Positions 36,483 to 47,607 of a DNA stretch of 47,623 nt are shown here, piece by piece; the stretch's first letter is position 1, and each line of letters begins with the position of its first letter. The DNA is from Acidimicrobiales bacterium (lineage in GTDB: Bacteria; Actinomycetota; Acidimicrobiia; Acidimicrobiales; SHLQ01), in assembly GCA_004282895.1 (NCBI GenBank), contig SHLQ01000005.1, positions 1 to 47,623 on the forward strand, given 5' to 3'. Both the position numbers and the translations under genes were made by a program. Under the pieces are notes generated by a model, which did not search any database, was not told where the DNA came from, and worked only from the letters and a program-made list of their open reading frames with translations.

Positions 36483-36607
36483 GCGAATCAGTGTCGCATA
36501 ACCGGGGTGCGAAACTGGGCTTCCTCCTGGATTTCGAGCGTTCCTGGTCGCTCGAATTCTCCACTCACAGTGCTCAGGATTTTTTGAAACCTGCCGATCA
36601 CATGGGT

Positions 36608-36976
36608 ATGGAAAGGCGTTTCTTCGAGCGGGTTGATACCAGCGTGAACGGTGAGCTGATTTGGGCGACCAAGGGGTCGTTCGGTCGGGTCACGACCCAT
36701 CGCGTCTACATCACGTCAGAGAATCTGTCGATCGACGGCATCAAGGTGCTGATCGACGACAGCTACGACTTCCCGATGCACTCCCGTGCCCGACTCAAGC
36801 TCGGTCTCGAGTTCTGTGATGTTGAGGTGCTGGGTATCGATCCGGCTCCCGCCGGTCAACAGGGGCTTCGACTGACCTTCCTCGCCCCCCACCAACGATT
36901 CCTCGAGGTCGTGGAGAAGTGGTTGCCAAAAGACCACGAGATCGGCGAGAACGTGAAACCTCTGTGGGCCGGCTAG
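36608..36976 (+). CDS. PilZ-domain protein (putative c-di-GMP receptor)
   Basis: A 122-residue protein that fits a minimal PilZ domain. The N-terminal RRFFERV matches the arginine motif and NLSIDG matches the (D/N)xSxxG motif that wrap c-di-GMP. ATG 36608 is placed right before the arginine motif; ATG 36602 is two codons earlier, and the long upstream extension is not protein-like. It lies directly before (9 bp, convergent) the sulfated-glycan operon, where c-di-GMP control of surface polymer synthesis would make sense; that link is inference. Confidence 0.75.
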   Translation: MERRFFERVDTSVNGELIWATKGSFGRVTTHRVYITSENLSIDGIKVLIDDSYDFPMHSRARLKLGLEFCDVEVLGIDPAPAGQQGLRLTFLAPHQRFLEVVEKWLPKDHEIGENVKPLWAG

Positions 36977-36985
36977 ACGTGTCTC

Positions 36986-37909
36986 CTACAGCCGCACGCT
37001 GCTGAGTTCCACACGGTCGGCCACACCTTCTGGGGGTGCAAGCGGATACGGAAGATCCGGCCCAGCCTCGATCGACCGCAGGTGCTCGGCGTTCGCCACC
37101 CATGCCGCGACGGGGCCGTTCAGCACCGCCAGGAGCTGCTCCGTTGGGTCGTACAACCGCTGAGCCAATATCCGGGCGTACTCGCGCGGGATCGTTTCGA
37201 TGTTGCCTGCATTCGGTCGGCCTGCGGGGAGCGTTACGTCGGTTGCGGAAACCTCGAGGAAGCCGAGAATGTCGCGGAGCAAGGCTTCGGGTCGTTCCTG
37301 TAGGTCTTCGTAGAAGCCGATGTAGAGGTTGCCTGGAGCCAAGGCCCGCTTCCACCGCGTGAGGTTGCGAAGATAACGGCTCTGCAGGTGCCTGCCCTTC
37401 AGTACGGAATCCGCGCTCCGACGCCCACTACGCATCGCCATCTGCGCCGCCGACCACTCCCGGTCGACCGGATTGCGCAGCAGATAGATCACCCGCAGAT
37501 GCGGGCACATCTCGACTGCGCGAGCGATCTGTTCATCGTTGAGCGTGGCGTAGTCCGGCGTTATCTCGCCGCTCATGATGCCCTCTGGAAAAAGCGAGCC
37601 GTACCAAGCGGGGGATGGTTCGCCGAAGAAGTACCGCCCGCACCACTCCCGGCGGGCGGTGTCGACACGCACGAGCGAGTCCGCGCGAAAGCGACGCTCC
37701 GTTGCCAGTTGGCGTCGCCATCGAACCGCGGGGGCGTCGGTCGCATGCCGCAATACGAACCAGGGACGGGTCTCCTCGATCTTTTCATCGAAGAAGTGGA
37801 GCTCCTTTACGGGTGGCAGCCACACGTCCTCCCGGAGTTCGAGCGCACGGTGAAGCCAGGTCGTTCCGGCCTTCTGGGCACCGATACAGAGAAACTGCGG
37901 ACCGGTCAT
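36986..37909 (-). CDS. Sulfotransferase (PF00685-type), last gene of glycan operon
   Basis: A 307-residue PAPS-dependent sulfotransferase. The 5'-phosphosulfate motif IGAQKAGTTWLHRAL begins at residue 8, and the 3'-phosphate motif YLLRNPVDREWSAAQMAMR lies in the middle, both well conserved. It ends an operon of six minus-strand genes and overlaps the preceding sulfotransferase gene by 4 bp (ATGA). It probably adds sulfate to sugars assembled by the operon's glycosyltransferases; the acceptor is unknown. Confidence 0.87.
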   Translation of the reverse strand: MTGPQFLCIGAQKAGTTWLHRALELREDVWLPPVKELHFFDEKIEETRPWFVLRHATDAPAVRWRRQLATERRFRADSLVRVDTARREWCGRYFFGEPSPAWYGSLFPEGIMSGEITPDYATLNDEQIARAVEMCPHLRVIYLLRNPVDREWSAAQMAMRSGRRSADSVLKGRHLQSRYLRNLTRWKRALAPGNLYIGFYEDLQERPEALLRDILGFLEVSATDVTLPAGRPNAGNIETIPREYARILAQRLYDPTEQLLAVLNGPVAAWVANAEHLRSIEAGPDLPYPLAPPEGVADRVELSSVRL

Positions 37910-38700
37910 GCGGAGGCCACCAGCTCGGCCGATGAGGAGGCCAACGCCTGCAATTGGCGCCAGATCGAGGTCGCCTCCGCGATGAGTGTCGCGTCGATCA
38001 CCCGGATCGGATCGACTCGGCTACCACCGAGTGAGGGATCCAATGCCGTCTCGTGCGCCGGGTCGAGGCCGAGGTCCCATCGATCGTTCACCGTGGACAC
38101 GATTCCACCGACGGCCGCCCGGTCGCTGAAGTCGACCGCATGGACGTGGGCCTGATCGGGGAGGGACGAGAGCAGCACCCGGTGATAGTTGATCCACATC
38201 CGTACGCCGAGGTCCGTGATCGACCAGAAATCCCGGTGGACGAGCCCTGGCCCCCGTTGCGCAGCCAGCTGTCGTGAATGACGCATGTGCAACGAGCGCA
38301 CACACTCCGACGGATTGCGAAAGACGATCAGAATCTCCGCCTCCGGCACCAGGTGCAGCCATATGGGGAGCAGTAGGCACACCCGAGGGTCCTTGAATCC
38401 CCACGGCTCGCCGGTCGATTCATGTCGAGCGTTTCTCGAGGCCACGAACTGCCGCATCGAATCCCAGATCCGACCGGGAACGTATGTGTCGAAAGGCTCA
38501 CGCGACTTCCAATCGGTGCCGCTGAGTTCGAGAATCTCCTGGTGAATCGAGATCACCTCATTGTCCTCGAAGTGACCATAGGGATTCGACGGTTCGCTCC
38601 CAAGGAGGTCGTCCCCGAGAAAGAGGCCTGCAAGGTGAAGCGAACGGGCGATCGCCGACGTGCCACTCCGGTGAAACCCGGCAACGATCAGCGGGTTCAT
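37906..38700 (-). CDS. Sulfotransferase-family protein
   Basis: A 264-residue protein of the sulfotransferase P-loop fold, distinct from its downstream neighbour. The PAPS loop is VAGFHRSGTSAIARSLHLAG at 6-25, and the second motif is ILIVFRNPSECVRSLHMRH. FKDPRVCLLLPIW contains a conserved Lys-Asp-Pro seen in bacterial glycan sulfotransferases. Its start codon shares one base with the preceding stop, and its end overlaps the next gene by 4 bp. Acceptor unknown; two different sulfotransferases in one operon suggest two sulfation positions. Confidence 0.83.
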   Translation of the reverse strand: MNPLIVAGFHRSGTSAIARSLHLAGLFLGDDLLGSEPSNPYGHFEDNEVISIHQEILELSGTDWKSREPFDTYVPGRIWDSMRQFVASRNARHESTGEPWGFKDPRVCLLLPIWLHLVPEAEILIVFRNPSECVRSLHMRHSRQLAAQRGPGLVHRDFWSITDLGVRMWINYHRVLLSSLPDQAHVHAVDFSDRAAVGGIVSTVNDRWDLGLDPAHETALDPSLGGSRVDPIRVIDATLIAEATSIWRQLQALASSSAELVASA

Positions 38701-39524
38701 CAGCCGACGGTGCGAAGCGGTCGAATCGCGATCACCGCTCCGCCCGGTGGGGTACCGGGACGGCCGCGCAACCCCCAGACCAGCTCGACTACATGATGCT
38801 GGCCAAAGGTGTCATCGATGGTGGACAGAAGGTCCCGCACGTTCGCCCGCGCGGACGCGGAGGCTACGTCGGCCGCGTCGAGCACGAAGACGAGCAGTCC
38901 GTCGGCGCGAAGTGATCGTTGTGCGCGCCGAAGGAGCGCAACGTCGCTCGAGGCACCCCACTGGACGAGCACGTCGGCCGAACCCTCGTCGACCTGTTCA
39001 AGCTCGAGCGTCGAGACGTACTCGTGTCCTCGCGGGATCATGGCCGACAACCACCGGTGGGGAGGAGCGCAGTCGACAACACAACCATCGGTGTCGACGT
39101 TCCGCAGGCCTTCGACGATTGCCCGCCCCACACCCTCACGCAAAAGCACCTGTGAGGCCTTGTCGGCATTGCGCAGTGCGTCGATATCGGCCGGGATCTC
39201 CGCAAGTGCCACGGAGTCAGGCAAACGAAGTCGGCCCAGCACCTCGTCGCGCTGGTCGTCACGAAGAACGAGTTTGTCGCTGGGTGTCAGAAGCGGAAGC
39301 ACTTCGTAGAGCGCGATCAGGTTCTCCTCGGAGCAATGCCGGAGGTCGACGGCCACCCCGGTGAACCAGTCGTCGTCGGATGCGAGACCCCACGGAAACG
39401 ACAGCGGATCCTCGATGATCAACACGTCACTGGAGAACGCAAGCTGAATCGTTTCCGGACCGGACAGGGAGTCATCGATGCCGTCACCGCCGAGCCGGCC
39501 GACGTATCGGGCGCACGCGGTCAT
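38700..39524 (-). CDS. Methyltransferase-like protein in glycan operon
   Basis: A 274-residue protein. The C-terminal half looks like a Rossmann-type methyltransferase core: a strand with acidic residues before PPHRWLSAMI, the DVLVQWGASSDVALLRRA helix, and LRADGLLVFVLDAADV, which resembles the strand after motif III. A clear glycine-rich SAM loop is not visible, so it may be degenerate or another fold. ATG 39524 is chosen because it overlaps the upstream stop (ATGA). A methylation role in the glycan pathway is suggested only weakly. Confidence 0.5.
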   Translation of the reverse strand: MTACARYVGRLGGDGIDDSLSGPETIQLAFSSDVLIIEDPLSFPWGLASDDDWFTGVAVDLRHCSEENLIALYEVLPLLTPSDKLVLRDDQRDEVLGRLRLPDSVALAEIPADIDALRNADKASQVLLREGVGRAIVEGLRNVDTDGCVVDCAPPHRWLSAMIPRGHEYVSTLELEQVDEGSADVLVQWGASSDVALLRRAQRSLRADGLLVFVLDAADVASASARANVRDLLSTIDDTFGQHHVVELVWGLRGRPGTPPGGAVIAIRPLRTVG

Positions 39525-39868
39525 AAGGCGTCGGGAGCCCACTTGTCGAGCAGGGTGCGGAAGCCCTCCATGCGCTTCAGCGCCGGTCCGGCCGGAGAGG
39601 AGGCCAGTCGATTCAATGTCCAGCGGAAGTCCTGGGCCATCAGGTTCCGTTCGTGTTGGATCGTGTCGCGTTCGCGAACCGCGTCCTTCAGTTGGTCTTC
39701 GAGGTCGCGGACTCGGGCCTGCAGGTGGGCTGATTCGTATCGAAGGAAGTCGAGCTCGACCACTTCGTGTTCCGAAATCGGTCCCGCGGGTATCAAGCCG
39801 AGGTCTTCGCCGTTCTCACTATCGGTCGGGAGTGAGCCGACAGCCTGATCTTCGGGGTCCTGATCCAT
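39521..39868 (-). CDS. Small coiled-coil protein in glycan operon
   Basis: A 115-residue hydrophilic protein. An acidic N terminus of about 35 residues precedes a predicted coiled coil from about 42 to 90 (heptads through YESAHLQARVRDLEDQLKDA). A basic C-terminal end follows, resembling the segment after coiled coils in some glycosyltransferase-associated proteins. There is no membrane helix. It is coupled to the next gene by ATGA and lies 30 bp after the glycosyltransferase. It may act as a scaffold or length-control element. Confidence 0.6.
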   Translation of the reverse strand: MDQDPEDQAVGSLPTDSENGEDLGLIPAGPISEHEVVELDFLRYESAHLQARVRDLEDQLKDAVRERDTIQHERNLMAQDFRWTLNRLASSPAGPALKRMEGFRTLLDKWAPDAL

Positions 39869-39898
39869 GATTCCTCTGGCGTTAGGGTACGCGACCGC

Positions 39899-40900
39899 TC
39901 AATCGGAGTGGTTCAGGGTCGCAATGAAGGCCGCGAACTCGTTCCGTTCCCGTTCGAGTGTGTGCCGTTCGGTTGCGGCGTGGCCCCCGGTTAGCAGCCG
40001 GTCCCAGAGGTCGGGCTCGTCCCGCAGTCGATGAAGCGCAGCGACGTGAGAGTCGACGTCCTCGAACTCGGCCCGCAGACAGTTCTCGTCCTCTCGGAGG
40101 TATGCCTTGTTGCCGCCGACGAACGCGCTGACCACGACATTGCTGGCGGCCATCGCCTCGAGTCCGGGAAGGTAGAAGCCCTCCTCTGGTCCGGGGGCGC
40201 AGAGAAGTACATCGGTCGAGTGGTACAGCTCGCGCAACTCGACCCACGTCGCCGGTTTGCGAATGGCGCGGAACGTGTAGTTCATATCCGCCGCCATGCG
40301 ATCGGCCACGCGATCCCCGATGGTCGACTTCCAGGTCATGTACCCAACCCGGATCGGGCCCTCAGCATCCCGGGGAGACGTCATGGAGAAGAACGGCCAG
40401 TCATGGCCCTCCACGATGGTGATGGCCGGGAATCTCTTGTTGGCCACCGGCTCGACCGCTTCCGCGACTTCGTTGGTGACAAAGATTCGCGTGACCGGGC
40501 GGTGGAGCAGCAGATAGGGAAAGCCGAGGTGCCAGGAGGGATTTGCGTGGCGGGTGTTCTGCACCAGGTGAATGACGTGGTGGCGGTCGGACCCGGGTGG
40601 GAGCGCACGCTCGATGTCAGGGTGTTGCGAAGGCTCGGAGAAGAGCACCCATGCGTCCTTCGGCAACGTCAGGTCCTTCAACAGCCCGAAGGAGATCCGA
40701 GGATCTTCCTGGGCCTTGCGGTACGCGGCGTGTTCGCGAATCGGCGCCTTGTCGCCCGGGAGTGGTGGGCCCCAGGCCACGGCGCGTTCGAAGCCGACGT
40801 CCACGGTGTGGTGAAGGTAATCGAGGATCTTGACGACGCCGCCAACGGGTCCCCAAAGGGGAAACACCACGTGAAACTCGGGAGCGATCGACGTCGTCAT
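39899..40900 (-). CDS. Glycosyltransferase (GT4-like, GT-B fold)
   Basis: A 333-residue predicted glycosyltransferase. The C-terminal donor domain contains ELYHSTDVLLCAPGPEEGFYLPGLEAMAAS, with the GPEEGFYLPGLEA stretch giving the E-x7-E nucleotide-sugar signature. The N-terminal domain starts FHVVFPLWGPVGGVVKILDYL, a typical GT-B glycine loop. ATG 40900 overlaps the stop of the upstream glycosyltransferase (ATGA). Donor and acceptor are unknown. It sits in the sulfated-glycan operon. Confidence 0.8.
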   Translation of the reverse strand: MTTSIAPEFHVVFPLWGPVGGVVKILDYLHHTVDVGFERAVAWGPPLPGDKAPIREHAAYRKAQEDPRISFGLLKDLTLPKDAWVLFSEPSQHPDIERALPPGSDRHHVIHLVQNTRHANPSWHLGFPYLLLHRPVTRIFVTNEVAEAVEPVANKRFPAITIVEGHDWPFFSMTSPRDAEGPIRVGYMTWKSTIGDRVADRMAADMNYTFRAIRKPATWVELRELYHSTDVLLCAPGPEEGFYLPGLEAMAASNVVVSAFVGGNKAYLREDENCLRAEFEDVDSHVAALHRLRDEPDLWDRLLTGGHAATERHTLERERNEFAAFIATLNHSD

Positions 40901-42063
40901 GTCGGGAGGCCCAGCTTCTTCGCCGCCTCCGCCAACGCGGAATCCGGCGCGAACCGTTCCGCCGACACACGAATGGCGCCCCGTTGCTTGCGGGCCAACA
41001 CCTCGGCGTCGGCGCACTCCGCATACGCGCGACTCCACGCATCATCGTCATCTGCTTCGACGACCCAGCCGGCGTCGTAGGCACGAATCAGGTCACTGAT
41101 CTCGCTATCGACCCCGTGAATCACCGGTACGCCGAAACGAAGTGCGACGGCCGAACGGGTGATCATCGCCATGTGACGCTCTGCGCTTTGGGCGAACACG
41201 TCAACCATCACGTCCATCGACTGGATCCACGCCGCGAAGTCGGAATACCCGAGCGGCCCGTCATGGCGATGTACTCCAGCCGGATCCGCGACGGGCTCGG
41301 CGTCGGGTGCAGACCCGCCCCAGTGCTCCGGTTGCAGCACATGCAACTCGTGCCCGGCGGCAGTCGCCGCGTGGTATGCGGCTGGCACATCGTCGAGTGC
41401 ACTCCAGCGTTGGACATACCCAGCGACGCCGACGCGAAGCGCGCCGGCGGCCGGCCTTTGGCTGCGAACCTCCGTGCCTGCCGGCAGCGGAACCGGCATC
41501 TCGACCGTGGTTACGTACTGCATCGGATCTCCGGTGACGAGGCGGGCCAGCCCGAGTTCCTCCGTGCGGATGCGATCGACAGATGGGCGTAGAAGCCACC
41601 CAAGCGCGTACCCCAACTTGCGATGCCCGTTGACCCACACGTGGTCGGCCAACGCGAGGGCGCGCTCCTTGCGACGCGCCTCACGGGCCCAATCCCGGTC
41701 GGTGCGGCCGCTCGACAGCAGCTCCAGGATCTTCGGCGCGAACATGTCGAACACGAACCTCGTGCCCGGCACGGGATGCAGGTGCGGCGCCATGTTTGCA
41801 TTGGTGAAGACGACGGTCTCGAACGAATTTGCCACGATGAACTCGTGCAGATCGGTCGGATTCACCACGGTCACGGCCGGCGGTGGGATGACGGGTTGCG
41901 CCGGATCCGTGACGATCTCGATGATGGTCTCGGGCACGGTGGTTTCCACTTCGAAGCCATGGGCCCGTAGTCCCGCCACCAAACCGGCCGCTCGGATGCC
42001 GGGGGCGGCGACCGGAACCCCAAAGCCGGGGATCACGTCGTTGGCGATGACGAGGATCGACAT
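40897..42063 (-). CDS. Glycosyltransferase-like protein, first gene of the glycan operon
   Basis: A 388-residue protein with a GT-B-like layout. The N-terminal MSILVIANDVIPGFGVPVAAPGIRAAGLVAGL is a glycine-rich start seen in GT4 enzymes. The donor half includes LRVGVAGYVQRWSAL, and SMDVMVDVFAQSAERHMAMITRSAVALRFGVPVIHG occupies the donor-binding area where related enzymes have a Glu-rich loop. ATG 42063 is the start; longer extensions run into the divergent gene. The divergent partner lies 57 bp away, so the promoter region is shared. Confidence 0.75.
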   Translation of the reverse strand: MSILVIANDVIPGFGVPVAAPGIRAAGLVAGLRAHGFEVETTVPETIIEIVTDPAQPVIPPPAVTVVNPTDLHEFIVANSFETVVFTNANMAPHLHPVPGTRFVFDMFAPKILELLSSGRTDRDWAREARRKERALALADHVWVNGHRKLGYALGWLLRPSVDRIRTEELGLARLVTGDPMQYVTTVEMPVPLPAGTEVRSQRPAAGALRVGVAGYVQRWSALDDVPAAYHAATAAGHELHVLQPEHWGGSAPDAEPVADPAGVHRHDGPLGYSDFAAWIQSMDVMVDVFAQSAERHMAMITRSAVALRFGVPVIHGVDSEISDLIRAYDAGWVVEADDDDAWSRAYAECADAEVLARKQRGAIRVSAERFAPDSALAEAAKKLGLPT

Positions 42064-42120
42064 GGCGCACACGCTACGCGGTGCGAAGCAGGTCGTGACC
42101 CATGTGCGAAACTGACTCGC

Positions 42121-44100
42121 GTGTCGACCACACCCCCGAACGTGCTGCTGATCATCGCCGACACCGTGCGCGCCGATCATCTCGACCTGTTCGGCTACAA
42201 CCGCATCACCACCCACCATCTGACGCGCCGGTTGCAGGCGCGTCCGGGGTGGACGCTGTTCGACCGCTGCTACTCGACCGCAGGGTGGACCCTTCCCGCG
42301 TGTGCGTCGATTATCACGGGACAGAACCCGGATCGACATGGGCTCATCGACCACAGTCGGAAGTTCACCACCGAGAAAATTGCGGGAGCGCTGCGGGCCA
42401 CACATCGAACCGTCGGGATCGGGAACAACGGCAACCTGGTGTCCGACGCAATCAGTGTCGAAACGCTGGAGGGTCTCGGGCTCAAGCGCCGTCCCAAAAA
42501 GTGGAATCACTTCGGCTGGAACGAAGGCTTCGACCGGTACGAGTGGTACCCCCACGACCAGCATTGGAAGGCACTCAACAAGGCTCGCCGGTTGCTGAAC
42601 CGGTGGCAGTCAGACCCCACACCGTGGTTCATGATGCTGCACACGAACCTGGCCCATGACTACAACCTCGACCGGCCCTACTACCGAGCGACCGAGCACT
42701 TCCTCGATGGGCCGCTCGACGAACGACTTCACGATTTCCGGGATGGGCCGGAGGTCTGGAACGAGCTGGCCGACGACGTGCCCAACCTCACCGAGCAGAT
42801 CATCGCAAAATATGACAGCGGTTTGCGACGGCTCGACCGGTCACTCGACCAGGTGCTCGACGTTGTTGACCTCGACAACACGATCGTGGCCATCGTCTCC
42901 GACCACGGTGAGGGTTTCGATCCCGAGCTCGGTCGCGTACATCATTGCGGTCGCATGCACGAAGACCTGTTGCATGTCCCGCTGATCTTCTTCACACCGC
43001 CGTCGGTGTACGGCAGCTCGCCGCCACCACCACGGCAGCGATTCGTCCGCAGCGTCACGGACATCGTGCCGACGATCCTGCGTATGACCAACGCTGCCAC
43101 GGGTGCGAAACATGACGGAGCCGATCTGTTCGGGCCGGAGCGTCATCGGTCGATCTTCGCCATGGACTCCGCCTATGTCTACCGTCCCGATGAACGCCCG
43201 ATTCGGCGCCTCTCATCGGATCAGGGTCCGCTGAGCGTGCAGAGCGTCATCAACTACCCGCTGAAGTCCACGAGCTACAGCTGGGAACCCGATGTGGCTG
43301 TTTCCGGACAGCACCACCTGGTCTACGACCCACTGGAGGTTCGGGAGCCGTTCGAGGCCGACACACCGCTGGCCGCGGTCACCGTTGTTGTCGACTTCGA
43401 CGAGTATGCCCACAATCTTGGAGCCAGCCCCGATGTCCGAAGCGGCGCGCTCGAACTCGAGGTGATCAACAACACGGACAATGCGGCCGGCGATGGGATC
43501 GGCCCTCTGTATGCGAACGCAACGACCTCGCAACAATCAGGGCCGATCGTGTACCTGCACCCCGACGTGTACCTCCCCGAAGGGTGGGTGACCCGAACCC
43601 AACACGCCCTCGCCCAGCTCGATGAGCTCGATCCGTTCTGGGCGGTTGCCGGTATCGCCGGGCGCGCCCGCGGTTCGATCGATCGAGGGGAGACCGGCAT
43701 CGGGCACTGGTCCGACCCGCACGGGTACCGAGCGTTCGGGATTCTGCCCCATCAGGTTGACGTCGTCGATGAGCTGATCATCATCGTGCGCGACCGCTCG
43801 GTCGACTTCGATGCCTCCATGCCGGGTTTCCACTGTTATGGCACCGACATCTGCGCCACGGCCCAGGCGGCCGGCCGCACGGTCTGGGTCATCGATTCGT
43901 TTGCATGGCACAAGATGCGCAAGTCCAACCGCGAACTCGTGACCCACGCCGATCGAAGCGGCAAGATCACCAACCGGGCCGAGGAGGGTTTCTCCGACGA
44001 GTTCACGCTGAGCGCCACCTATGTCAAGGACAAGTGGGATGGTGTGCAGCCGCTGCAGGGAATGACGGAATACTGGCGCGACTTCTACGGCGTCGGCTGA
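42121..44100 (+). CDS. Alkaline-phosphatase-superfamily (sulfatase-like) domain fused to a GT2-like glycosyltransferase
   Basis: A 659-residue fusion. Residues about 1-350 form a sulfatase-fold domain with metal ligands in LLIIADTVRADH (Asp14) and VSDHGEGF (Asp261, His262). At the nucleophile site the sequence is GWTLPACASIITGQ: Thr57 stands where sulfatases have the formylglycine Cys of CxPxR, as in lipoteichoic-acid synthases and phosphoethanolamine transferases. Residues about 415-645 look like a StrF-type glycosyltransferase (PF13712), with VYLHPDVYLPEGW and GFHCYGTDICATAQAAGRTVWV. No membrane helix is present. It probably modifies a surface glycan; reaction unknown. It begins at GTG. Confidence 0.8.
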   Translation: MSTTPPNVLLIIADTVRADHLDLFGYNRITTHHLTRRLQARPGWTLFDRCYSTAGWTLPACASIITGQNPDRHGLIDHSRKFTTEKIAGALRATHRTVGIGNNGNLVSDAISVETLEGLGLKRRPKKWNHFGWNEGFDRYEWYPHDQHWKALNKARRLLNRWQSDPTPWFMMLHTNLAHDYNLDRPYYRATEHFLDGPLDERLHDFRDGPEVWNELADDVPNLTEQIIAKYDSGLRRLDRSLDQVLDVVDLDNTIVAIVSDHGEGFDPELGRVHHCGRMHEDLLHVPLIFFTPPSVYGSSPPPPRQRFVRSVTDIVPTILRMTNAATGAKHDGADLFGPERHRSIFAMDSAYVYRPDERPIRRLSSDQGPLSVQSVINYPLKSTSYSWEPDVAVSGQHHLVYDPLEVREPFEADTPLAAVTVVVDFDEYAHNLGASPDVRSGALELEVINNTDNAAGDGIGPLYANATTSQQSGPIVYLHPDVYLPEGWVTRTQHALAQLDELDPFWAVAGIAGRARGSIDRGETGIGHWSDPHGYRAFGILPHQVDVVDELIIIVRDRSVDFDASMPGFHCYGTDICATAQAAGRTVWVIDSFAWHKMRKSNRELVTHADRSGKITNRAEEGFSDEFTLSATYVKDKWDGVQPLQGMTEYWRDFYGVG

Positions 44101-44681
44101 AAGTCGCTGGGCGCCCGCTCCTGGCGAAGCCACGTGAGTGTTCCCAATGCAAGCACAACCGCCAACATCACCAGCATGGTGATTCCACTCGACACCTCGA
44201 ACAACGAGCAGGCCGCCGCCGCTATCGCTGCCCCGATCGCGAGCAACACGATGCGGATCGGCAACGGTGACCGTCCCGGTTCCGATTGTGCTCGCACCGC
44301 TTCGAGCATGCCGCCAAGGCCAATCACGAAGATGCTGAAACCGATGGCCAGCGTGGACAGGTGGTCGCGTTCGAGAATGCCGAAGGTGTCATCGTCGATC
44401 CACGGCTGAAGCCGGTCAACGACTGCGAACCGGTAACCGAACCATGCCGCCGCGCCACCGGCTGCTGCACCGATCATCATCCGAACGCTGCGAGTGGTGC
44501 TCAGAGTCATGGCGAGGAGGCCACCAGCGAGCAAGGTGATCCCAACCCCAACCCAGAATCGGCTCGGCACGGGGGCTTCGGCAAGTACACCGATAATTCC
44601 GAGCATCCAGCCGAGTGCCATCGACCGCAACGGCACGGAGGAGTCCTGGCGAATGAACTGTGGTTGAAAGGTGATACTCAT
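44085..44681 (-). CDS. Polytopic membrane protein, unknown function
   Basis: A 198-residue protein with about five hydrophobic segments (about 22-35, 43-60, 68-85, 108-125, 140-182) separated by short loops, and a short polar tail. No motif is recognised. Its 3' end overlaps the convergent fusion gene by 16 bp. It could be a membrane component of the adjacent glycan locus, but nothing in the sequence shows this. Confidence 0.6.
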   Translation of the reverse strand: MSITFQPQFIRQDSSVPLRSMALGWMLGIIGVLAEAPVPSRFWVGVGITLLAGGLLAMTLSTTRSVRMMIGAAAGGAAAWFGYRFAVVDRLQPWIDDDTFGILERDHLSTLAIGFSIFVIGLGGMLEAVRAQSEPGRSPLPIRIVLLAIGAAIAAAACSLFEVSSGITMLVMLAVVLALGTLTWLRQERAPSDFQPTP

Positions 44682-44755
44682 CCCAGAGCGATCAATTCGC
44701 GACGCCGTTGCACGTGGCAGACCCTAGCGAATCCGTGCGAAGTGTCCCAGACAAC

Positions 44756-45373
44756 TCAGGACTGACGCGACTCGATCGCATCAAGAATGCGGTCGTAGGT
44801 TTCGACGGGCTGCGCGCCCGGGACGGCGAATGCATCGGCGAACACGACCGTTGGTGCCGCAGTAACACTGTTCTCCATCGCCATGTTGTGATCTTCGATG
44901 ACCTTCTGCGTCATCTCGTCAGCATGAGCACGCGCATATTCCTCGAACTCCTCCCGATCGATCCCCACTTCGACCGCCAGATTGACGAGCTCGTCGCTAT
45001 CGGCGATGTTGCGATTCTCGGAGAAATAGGCCTCGAGCAGACGGTGGTGAAAGGCCATCGCCAGATCGGGCCAACCAGCCTCAACGGTCTTGAATGCGAC
45101 CTGCGCGGGGACACTCGAGGACGGTTGATCGGCCTTGGACGCCCACACCTGGAACCTCGCACGCGGTTCGGATTCGGCCGGGCGAAGCCAGCTTTGGGTG
45201 TACTCGATGAACTTGTCGCGATCACCGGTCTTGGGCTCCACCCGGAGCAGGAACGACCGCCAGTCGATCTCGATGCGGTCTCCCGCTGATTCCGCGAAAT
45301 CGTCGAGGCGCACGGCCGCGACGTAACACCATGGTCAAAGAAAGTCGGACCACACGCTGATCGAGGTTGCCAT
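44756..45373 (-). CDS. DsbA-family thiol oxidoreductase, predicted selenoprotein (Sec-Pro-Trp-Cys)
   Basis: Read through one in-frame UGA (45335-45337), this gene encodes 205 residues of the DsbA/FrnE-like thioredoxin fold. The N terminus reads VWSDFL-Sec-PWCYVAAVRLDDF, with UGA at codon 13 exactly at the first position of the CPWC active site, while the second Cys (residue 16) and the cis-Pro loop VTAAPTVVF are intact. A candidate SECIS hairpin follows. Without readthrough, translation could start only at Val or later Met-like codons (for example 45313) and would lose the active site. It starts at the ATG 38 bp after the YceH-fusion stop, with no clear ribosome binding site. Related proteins are disulfide oxidoreductases or 2-hydroxychromene-2-carboxylate isomerase-like. 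Confidence 0.82.
45301..45323 (-). promoter_or_regulatory. Candidate bacterial SECIS hairpin
   Basis: The mRNA directly after the UGA can form stem CGTCG (45323-45319) with CGACG (45305-45301), plus CG with CG, a 3-nt bulge and the 6-nt loop GCCGUG. Eighteen nucleotides separate the UGA from the loop, and the loop begins with G, both within the usual range for bacterial SECIS elements bound by SelB. Confidence 0.55.
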
Positions 45374-45411
45374 GATGCGAGCGTACGAGGCGATTGGTTC
45401 AACCGCGCCGT

Positions 45412-46716
45412 TCAGCGGGCGGCGTAGGTCGACGTTCCCGAAGACAACAGCTCGTCGGCCGCGGCGCGGAGTGTGGCTGCGGTGGCGTTGAACATGGCGC
45501 CGCCGATGGACACCCGGCGAACCCCAACCGCTCGCATCGACTCCACCGACGGTCCGTTGGGTCGCGCCAGGACGTTGATGGGTTGGTCCACCGAATCGAC
45601 GACCAGTTCGATCAGATCGATATCCGCCAGGCCAGGTGCATAGAGAACCTCGGCCCCGGCGGCGCCGTAGGCGGCCAGCCGTTCCACCGTGTCGTCGAGA
45701 TCGTCGACGCCGTACAGCAGGTTCTCTGCGCGTGCGGTGAGCACGATGTCATGGGCCGCGCCGGCTTCGACGGCCTCGGCTACCGCTTCTGTTGCTGCGC
45801 CGATCGGGTCAATGGACGACGTCTGCGGGTTGTAGTCCTCAATCGACAGCCCCGATGCGCCGGCCGCTGCGAGCAGACGAACCGTCTCGGTGATCCCGCC
45901 GGGTTCGTCCGGGAAGAGCCGTTCACTGTCCACGTTGAGCGGAACGGTGATGAACGATGTGAGATCGGCGACATGGGCGACCAGTTCGTCGCGGGTGACC
46001 TCCTGATCGTCTTTGCCGATCGCTCGTCCGAACCCGGAGCTGGTGGTCGCCAGGGCAGGGAAACCCTTCTCCTGAAGGAGCCGGGCTGAGCCGCGATCCC
46101 AGGGATTGGGCATGATGAAGAGGTCGGCGGCGTGGAGCTGGCGGAAAACGTCGGTGCGCTGTCGCCCGCCGTGCAAGGGCGCATGGGACGTGGGCGGCGA
46201 GGCAGGCTCGAGCGTGTGGCCGGTCTCGCCCAGCAGTTGCACCCAACGGTCCTGACTTTGGCCGGGACTGCGCCCCACGTTCATGGCCAGGGACGGCTCG
46301 CGTTGCGCCAGTCGCGTCAACGTCTCGTCGACCTCCTCCACCGACTCGAAGGGGTGCAGACGCTCGGTTCGAGTGCGGAGCTCACCGCTCGTCTGGGCGC
46401 CACGAAGGGAAAGTACGGCTACAACGGCCAGTTCGTCGTCACCGAGTGGGATCGCCTCCGGCACGACATGACGATGTTTCCACGCTCGTGAGCCGGTGGG
46501 ACGGAGGCTCCGGGCCAGGCCGCGGTCCCGAAGCGACAGCATCGCCGCATCGATGTCGGACTCCGAGAGTGAGGTTACCGGGTCGCGGCTGGTCTTCTGG
46601 TTGCAGGCGCTGACGAGACTGTTGGTGGTGAGCGGATAGTTGTCCGGTGTCGCCCGTTCCTTCTCGATCAGCGACGCCAGGACTCGCAGTTCCGATTCGG
46701 TGAGATCCAGATCCAT
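45412..46716 (-). CDS. YceH (DUF480) fused to isocitrate lyase/PEP mutase-family domain
   Basis: A 434-residue fusion. Residues 1 to about 170 match DUF480/YceH, a tandem winged-helix protein: LTESELRVLASLIEKERATPDNYPLTTNSLVSACNQKTSRDPV is its hallmark. Residues about 185-434 are a PEP mutase/isocitrate lyase-type barrel (DLFIMPNPWDRGSARLLQEKGFPALATTSS, VPLNVDSERLF, LSIEDYNPQT, VLTARAENLL). Its Asp and Glu metal-site residues are kept, but the lyase KKCGH loop is absent. The domain join is in one frame with no stop. It is probably in one transcript with the downstream selenoprotein. Function of the fusion is unknown. Confidence 0.82.
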   Translation of the reverse strand: MDLDLTESELRVLASLIEKERATPDNYPLTTNSLVSACNQKTSRDPVTSLSESDIDAAMLSLRDRGLARSLRPTGSRAWKHRHVVPEAIPLGDDELAVVAVLSLRGAQTSGELRTRTERLHPFESVEEVDETLTRLAQREPSLAMNVGRSPGQSQDRWVQLLGETGHTLEPASPPTSHAPLHGGRQRTDVFRQLHAADLFIMPNPWDRGSARLLQEKGFPALATTSSGFGRAIGKDDQEVTRDELVAHVADLTSFITVPLNVDSERLFPDEPGGITETVRLLAAAGASGLSIEDYNPQTSSIDPIGAATEAVAEAVEAGAAHDIVLTARAENLLYGVDDLDDTVERLAAYGAAGAEVLYAPGLADIDLIELVVDSVDQPINVLARPNGPSVESMRAVGVRRVSIGGAMFNATAATLRAAADELLSSGTSTYAAR

Positions 46717-46746
46717 GAGGGGATCGTAGATCGAATGGGCGGCGCG

Positions 46747-47607
46747 CTATCGGAGCGTCAGATCCACACAGCGATCATCGAGGCGACCCTGGGTCCAGTA
46801 GGGCCAGATGCCACCGACCATCCGTCGGGTTTGTTCGGTCCACTCCACCACGTCCGGACGAGCAATTCGGCGCACGGTCTGACGAATCGTGGTGTCCGAT
46901 ACCTCATAACCGGCCCACACGCCGGGGTAGTCCGATGTTGCCGACACCTCGGTGTAGAGAACCGAACGTTTCGGCCCAATGTGGTGGCGACGGTTTCGGT
47001 GGCTGTGCCCTGAACTGATGAAGACATTGGAGTTCAGGTCGGCGAGCTGCCCCACGAAAGGTCGAGCTTCGATGGAACTGATACCAGCCGGAATGAACCA
47101 GGGGAGGGGCGAGCGCTGGAGGTTGTGGTGTATCGCAAGGAAAACGGGGGAGTCCACCGAGGACGCGGCGTCCAGAATGTGGTCGCGGCTGGACCGCAGC
47201 GTTCCTCGACCCTTGGCGTCGATGTGGGTGTGGGCCGTGATGATTCGAACGCCGACGAGGTCGTGTACACCAACTTCGTCCGATGCCAGCCCGAGTTCGG
47301 CGATCGCCTCGGTGGGTGGCTGGTCCGCTTCCGCGAACGCATCATGGTTTCCGGGCACGACGGCAACGGGTATGTCGACCTCGTCGAGCAGTGCGGCCGC
47401 AGCATGCCAGTGGTCATGGCGGCCCTTGTCGGTGATGTCGCCCTTGATCACGAGAAGTTCCGCTCCCCACGCTTGCGCCTCATGAGCCGCGGCGACGGCG
47501 GCACGAAACAGGCTCGACGGTGTTGCCGTATCCGGGGTGGTGCGGGCGACGCCGTAGCCGGGCAGCCCAAGATGGAGGTCGGAGATGGTTGCGAAGCGGG
47601 ACGTCAC
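46747..47607 (-). CDS. Metallophosphoesterase (calcineurin-like)
   Basis: A 286-residue metallophosphoesterase with the full set of motifs: ISDLHLG at the N terminus, KGDITDKG, VPGNHD, IHHN, and SSGHSHRNRR near the C terminus, giving the binuclear metal site. It may hydrolyse a cyclic nucleotide, phosphodiester or phosphomonoester; no close substrate clue is seen. The start used here is GTG at 47607. The frame remains open to the window edge (16 bp), so the true start may lie outside. Confidence 0.85.
   Translation of the reverse strand: MTSRFATISDLHLGLPGYGVARTTPDTATPSSLFRAAVAAAHEAQAWGAELLVIKGDITDKGRHDHWHAAAALLDEVDIPVAVVPGNHDAFAEADQPPTEAIAELGLASDEVGVHDLVGVRIITAHTHIDAKGRGTLRSSRDHILDAASSVDSPVFLAIHHNLQRSPLPWFIPAGISSIEARPFVGQLADLNSNVFISSGHSHRNRRHHIGPKRSVLYTEVSATSDYPGVWAGYEVSDTTIRQTVRRIARPDVVEWTEQTRRMVGGIWPYWTQGRLDDRCVDLTLR

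Follow-up and report, generated by a model that had tools for sequence, protein, structure and literature searches.

Sulfated glycans are familiar from animals and algae; few bacterial groups are known for them, and in Actinomycetota they are barely described. Does a seven-gene locus in an Acidimicrobiales bacterium encode the building and sulfation of such a glycan, and if so, what kind of product would it make? The locus occupies positions 36986-44100 of contig SHLQ01000005.1, which is analysed here at its full length of 47,623 nucleotides (the window) and belongs to a metagenome-assembled genome (MAG; G000) that is 85% complete. An original prediction, made from the DNA letters, read the locus as a six-gene operon with a divergent fusion gene and as a possible new type of sulfated-polymer locus. 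Enzyme classes, conserved gene order and the supply of the sulfate donor 3'-phosphoadenosine 5'-phosphosulfate (PAPS) are established below by comparison of sequences or structures. We consider it likely that the locus belongs to a set of genes inherited together whose products build and sulfate a short glycan in the cytosol, with export and any polymerisation taking place elsewhere.

Organization of the locus

All seven open reading frames (ORFs) lie where they were predicted, with the overlaps and spacings as described, and each is selected by a codon-usage gene caller. The genes and the names used for them are as follows.

ST1, 36986-37909, minus strand, 307 aa: predicted PAPS sulfotransferase resembling heparan-sulfate 3-O-/N-sulfotransferases
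ST2, 37906-38700, minus strand, 264 aa: second, divergent protein with a predicted PAPS-sulfotransferase fold; core module gene
MT, 38700-39524, minus strand, 274 aa: N-terminal DPLSFPWE-motif domain and C-terminal methyltransferase-like domain, here without S-adenosylmethionine (SAM) motif I
CC, 39521-39868, minus strand, 115 aa: small coiled-coil protein, strongly conserved in the genus; proposed adaptor
GTB1, 39899-40900, minus strand, 333 aa: predicted GT-B (GT4-like) glycosyltransferase
GTB2, 40897-42063, minus strand, 388 aa: divergent GT-B glycosyltransferase candidate; the most diagnostic module gene
FUS, 42121-44100, plus strand, 659 aa: divergent accessory gene; Thr-type alkaline-phosphatase-superfamily (sulfatase-fold) domain and majastridin-like GT-A-type domain

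The minus-strand genes overlap by 4, 1, 4 and 4 bp, with a single gap of 30 bp, and are transcribed in the order GTB2, GTB1, CC, MT, ST2, ST1, while FUS points away across 57 bp. An upstream GTG at 39542 is a possible start for MT; the ATG at 39524 yields the usual 4-bp overlap. None of the seven proteins contains a strong transmembrane segment, which is consistent with cytosolic work accessible to PAPS, and NCBIfam holds no family for ST1, ST2, MT or CC. Neither the stretch 36986-44100 nor the set of flanking genes scanned includes an initiating transferase, a flippase or polymerase, or an ATP-binding cassette (ABC) exporter, and the designation as a polymer locus is therefore unsupported.

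A conserved module in distant lineages

Orthologues were sought by protein search within the family, for which GTB1 and GTB2 proved useful probes. GTB1 orthologues occur in most genomes of the window's genus at the same chromosomal place, flanked on one side by the same four genes (here 44085-47607) and on the other by a PilZ-like gene (here 36491-36976), with GTB2-GTB1-CC-MT-ST2 between them. A GTB2 profile run against 84,980 species genomes returned 25 loci, some of them close relatives of each other and not all independent, which were analysed by gene calling and profile searches. The genes run ST2-CC-MT-GTB2-GTB1 in Rubrobacteraceae, Sediminihabitans and an Acidimicrobiia MAG, often with one to three copies of ST1 behind them, and Nocardioides has this order but no ST1. 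Nitriliruptorales place ST1 before ST2 and have one further gene ahead of GTB2. In the alphaproteobacterium Palleronia (Pseudomonadota), the module lacks ST1 and CC is fused to ST2. No GTB1 was called at the Nocardioides litoris locus and no CC at a locus from another family of the order (L116), which has ST2, MT, GTB2 and GTB1. Compared with these distant lineages, the window's genus carries the same genes with two blocks swapped. Cultured carriers include Sediminihabitans luteus DSM 25478, Nocardioides litoris DSM 103718 and Palleronia aestuarii DSM 22009.

Gene order is largely kept in distant actinobacteria and in Palleronia, and chance clustering is rejected on this ground. Three fusions join members of the module: MT-GTB2 in genus g2, GTB2-GTB1 in one genome (G156) and ST2-CC in Palleronia. 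Pairwise distances of the module genes correlate at 0.81-0.95, as expected under co-inheritance, and shared descent contributes to these values. In a sample of 396 genomes from the phylum, 13 matched the GTB2 profile, and 11 of these belong to a single family, the Rubrobacteraceae. Because Acidimicrobiia sequences fall in four separate places of the GTB2 tree and gene neighbourhoods differ among lineages, the module is patchy and was probably transferred from genome to genome as a unit. Spread by plasmids is unsupported, as no plasmid in PLSDB carries GTB2.

Two local variations were seen within the genus. In relatives, the PilZ-like gene comes after the module on the module's own strand, with an NYN/LabA-like gene ahead of it; in the window (36491-36976, plus strand) it stands on the opposite strand and the NYN/LabA-like gene is absent, indicating a small local rearrangement. 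GTB2 and GTB1 are separated in the genomes G158 and G154 by three inserted genes, one of them UDP-sugar epimerase-like (L041 8812-12369 and L052 11177-14022).

The neighbourhoods also bear on what kind of product is made. The best-surviving alternative, possible but doubtful, is that the product is a sulfated glycolipid or small glycoconjugate, comparable to mycobacterial sulfolipid or Nod factor, and not part of a polysaccharide. The presence of just two or three glycosyltransferases agrees with this, as does the lack of polymerase, flippase and ABC exporter, and the glycolipid sulfotransferase NodH belongs to PF13469, the same Pfam family as both sulfotransferases here (PMC11625862). However, the module is unaccompanied by lipid-making genes. 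Moreover, it is accompanied in Sediminihabitans by an ABC exporter, a UDP-GlcNAc 2-epimerase and a UDP-sugar dehydrogenase, and it lies near a WecA-type enzyme in Rubrobacteraceae, both settings being typical of surface polysaccharides.

Two sulfotransferases of different kinds

The sulfation that we propose for the module would depend on its two sulfotransferases. ST1 matches the Pfam families PF13469 (1.4e-16) and PF00685 (9.8e-13) above cut-off, and its family profile matches 3-OST-3A1 (4e-17) and NDST (8e-10). The PAPS loop GAQKAGT and the 3'-phosphate-binding residues R145 and S153 are invariant in nine sequences, and the protein keeps the catalytic-type segment KExHxFD, including the E and H of KExHFFD. 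By sequence, ST1 is assigned to the heparan-sulfate 3-O-/N-sulfotransferase group, a likeness of homology alone to the 3-OST/NDST family, from which ST1 differs in being soluble and bacterial. ST1 orthologues of ~52% identity occupy the same place in G154 and G158 and occur in no other genomes of the genus; in G154, CC-MT-ST2-ST1 stand at a contig start in the window's order. Identity to the other ST1 proteins of the module is 28-40%.

ST2 is more divergent. It matches PF13469 (9.8e-7), and a search of the PDB with its sequence profile gave no match, which made a structure model necessary. The model (predicted local distance difference test score, pLDDT, 91.3) aligns best to the tyrosylprotein sulfotransferase TPST1 (Z 16.1 over 212 residues, root-mean-square deviation 4.1), followed by TPST2 (Z 15.6), and the best 26 of the matches listed are all sulfotransferases (Z 16.1-11.7). 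Actinobacterial PAPS enzymes are also among the structural relatives, namely the mycobacterial STF9 (Z 14.9), STF1 (13.9) and Stf0 (10.4), although identity in these structural alignments is 11-15% and the gene neighbourhood here lacks the polyketide and acyltransferase genes of a sulfolipid pathway. With the cofactor loop GFHRSGTS and the residues R128/S136 conserved, the model confidently points to a PAPS-sulfotransferase fold.

The TPST1/2 matches raise the alternative that the module glycosylates and sulfates a protein, with ST2 as a bacterial enzyme of the tyrosylprotein-sulfotransferase type. We regard this as very unlikely, since polyketide sulfotransferase domains and STF9 align to the model within about 1 Z unit of TPST1/2, ST1 matches heparan-sulfate enzymes, and the module includes neither a conserved candidate substrate protein nor a conserved acidic tyrosine motif in CC.

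Cofactor loops are retained in nearly all ST1 and ST2 proteins. The loop is lost in Nocardioides litoris ST2 and in small ST2-like ORFs that lie upstream of MT in genus g2 (L048 2339-2650, L049 6383-6775, L050 7011-7361 and L051 11955-12446). Each of the latter looks like a vestige of ST2 or a remnant without catalytic function.

Sulfate activation and PAPS supply

The window's genome carries cysD-cysN-cysC, in agreement with the PAPS synthesis that the sulfated-glycan reading calls for, and a neighbouring inositol-phosphatase-like gene that reads as CysQ-like from its sequence. Two matches to the PAPS reductase family (PF01507) in this genome were rejected as reductases: one is CysD itself, beside cysN-cysC, and the second is GMP synthase-like. 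Adenosine 5'-phosphosulfate (APS) kinase is present in 10 of the 11 genomes of the genus. An assimilatory APS/PAPS reductase scoring above the CysD cross-match was found in none of these 11 genomes, compared with all nine sampled outside the genus, an argument from absence in draft genomes of which several are 90-96% complete. With APS kinase kept and no assimilatory reductase found, PAPS in the genus has no evident reductive use and probably serves sulfation; the genus may depend on reduced sulfur. The module proposes a purpose for sulfate activation in a genus apparently without an assimilatory reductase. PAPS genes also adjoin the module in two other lineages. In Sediminihabitans, the module is followed by cysN, cysD and a gene for a CysQ-like phosphatase, and in Nitriliruptorales, genes for APS kinase and a UDP-sugar dehydrogenase come before it.

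The remaining alternative, that the sulfotransferase-fold proteins do not use PAPS and that the module makes an ordinary unsulfated (methylated) envelope glycan, could draw on the degenerate loops of Nocardioides litoris and genus g2 and on the many PF13469 proteins that are only putative sulfotransferases, but it is very unlikely given cofactor loops conserved nearly throughout, PAPS genes beside the module in two lineages and, in the window's genus, PAPS synthesis with no assimilatory reductase found.

The original prediction's pairing of sugar assembly with PAPS-dependent sulfation is supported as coherent. The comparisons brought up no homologues acting on unrelated metabolites, no lack of PAPS synthesis and no lack of conserved gene order, the outcomes it had named as adverse.

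Elsewhere in the window's genome, contigs C263 and C135 (L079, L082 and L084) carry other sulfotransferase genes beside genes that read as Wzz-like and O-antigen-polymerase-like from their sequence. This suggests further sulfated exopolysaccharide loci, and export machinery for sulfated exopolysaccharide may accordingly exist elsewhere in the genome.

Glycosyltransferases and the CC and MT proteins

GTB1 matches PF13692 (4.4e-7; 30.7 bits against a cut-off of 27), and its profile matches the C-terminal domains of PimA, PglH and MshA, identifying it as a predicted GT4-like GT-B glycosyltransferase. GTB2 is further removed: its GT1/4 Pfam matches reach 16 bits, which is under the cut-off, and its profile match in the PDB, to a GT-B glucosyltransferase, is weak (0.006).

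CC has no Pfam match above cut-off and is 57-63% identical within the genus. Distant versions have in common the motif DLxWLLRRLxxSPxGPxLRRxxGFRxL, which is present in two copies in Rubrobacteraceae.

The fourth protein, MT, had been described as methyltransferase-like. This holds for its derivation, while SAM motif I has been lost in the window's lineage. The window protein has no Pfam match, and a search with this single gene turned up relatives in just two further genomes of the order, because MT evolves fast. MT proteins share an N-terminal domain with a DPLSFPWE-like motif, and a complete Methyltransf_11/25 or FkbM domain is recognised in distant orthologues. Rubrobacteraceae and Palleronia have a class I methyltransferase as the C-terminal domain, and Nitriliruptorales and one Nocardioides have an FkbM methyltransferase there. 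The glycine-rich motif I of this domain is gone in the window's genus, with VVDCAPPHRW in the window aligning to VLEVGCGTGRW in Rubrobacteraceae, and most relatives have a shortened C-terminal domain. The structure model of the window protein (pLDDT 74.6, with a weak middle) aligns to methyltransferases alone (Z up to 11.1) over about residues 78-273. No fold was identified for the N-terminal domain among these matches, which span only that range, and a known fold is possible there. With motif I lost in a protein whose model is methyltransferase-like, catalysis has probably been lost and the protein retained.

A proposed pathway for a short sulfated glycan

On the reading of the module as a cytosolic system for a short sulfated glycan, GTB2 and then GTB1 would each attach one sugar to an acceptor, perhaps a lipid-linked saccharide or the end of a chain. 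ST1 and ST2 are predicted to transfer sulfo groups from PAPS to different positions of the glycan. CC could be a coiled-coil adaptor that keeps the enzymes in contact with one another or attached to the membrane, a role suggested by the CC-ST2 fusion and by its constant place in the module. MT would methylate the glycan where its SAM domain is intact, and in the window's lineage its conserved N-terminal domain probably lets it serve as a partner without catalysis. Export and any polymerisation would be carried out by machinery encoded elsewhere.

Several points weigh against this reading. The operon itself contains no flippase, polymerase or initiating transferase. The glycosyltransferase evidence for GTB2 is weak, ST2 is at least as similar to tyrosylprotein sulfotransferase as to carbohydrate sulfotransferases, and several of the compared genomes are incomplete MAGs.

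More tentatively, the module could represent a dedicated sulfated-glycan pathway across Actinomycetota and beyond, one with heparan-sulfate-like chemistry and a new two-part scaffold. In this speculative picture, the CC family and the DPLSFPWE domain of MT would organise glycosyltransferases and sulfotransferases into one complex that persists after the methyltransferase is lost.

Relation to known sulfated-glycan systems

Clusters for sulfated bacterial polysaccharides are a known kind of locus, of which this gene set appears to be a new form; no open-access paper describing it was found. The synechan (xss) cluster of Synechocystis comprises eight glycosyltransferases, two sulfotransferases (XssA and XssE), and polymerisation, export and regulatory genes (PMC13125312). 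It resembles the module in gene content, combining glycosyltransferases with two sulfotransferases for PAPS-dependent sulfation, whereas the module lacks the export genes of synechan and synechan has no described CC or MT partner (PMC13125312). The wps-1 cluster of Actinoplanes missouriensis is a predicted sulfated-exopolysaccharide cluster (PMC13390465). Like the module, it is actinobacterial and contains glycosyltransferases, a methyltransferase and two sulfotransferases of different families, one of the heparan-sulfate type (PMC13390465). However, it has GT2 and GT26 enzymes rather than two GT-B enzymes, in addition to Wzx/Wzy/Wzz, GH26 and a kinase-like gene (PMC13390465), and it is not among the GTB2 profile matches of the 84,980-genome scan. 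The earlier view that sulfated glycans are rarely described in actinobacteria thus needs qualifying: they are barely described, and wps-1 is a predicted case (PMC13390465). One recent paper treats bacterial sulfated polysaccharides as exclusive to cyanobacteria (PMC13390465). Other reported examples are the capsules of Vibrio and Cobetia and the exopolymers of Pontiella.

A transferable module with two kinds of sulfotransferase offers a genetic marker with which soil and marine actinobacteria can be searched for sulfated glycans, and it is a putative source of soluble heparan-type sulfotransferases.

The accessory fusion gene FUS

Both domains of the proposed sulfatase-fold/glycosyltransferase fusion were matched. 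The N-terminal half of FUS matches sulfatase PF00884 (6e-30) and PF01663 (3.5e-5) and contains the metal-site motif SDHGE; by fold family and metal-site motifs, it belongs to the alkaline-phosphatase superfamily. The C-terminal half matches majastridin (PDB 2qgi/2nxv, 5e-12). FUS was rejected as a formylglycine (type I) sulfatase. Its segment T-L-P-A-C aligns with S-T-P-A-R of choline-sulfatase, placing a Thr at the nucleophile position where Cys/Ser-x-Pro-x-Arg requires Cys or Ser, and formylglycine maturation is therefore impossible. A Thr at this position is found in nucleotide pyrophosphatases/phosphodiesterases.

Nor is FUS a core module gene. It was found in only three genomes of the genus, those of the window and its relatives G154 and G158, and is therefore accessory; the sulfatase half is degenerate in both relatives. 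FUS and ST1 go together in one subclade. There, FUS may conceivably add a third sugar, and its Thr-type half might remove a phosphate or sulfate ester or pass it on. At L022 (838-2448), next to a GT2 gene, a single protein unites a methyltransferase with a majastridin-like domain akin to the C-terminal half of FUS and carries a coiled coil at one end.

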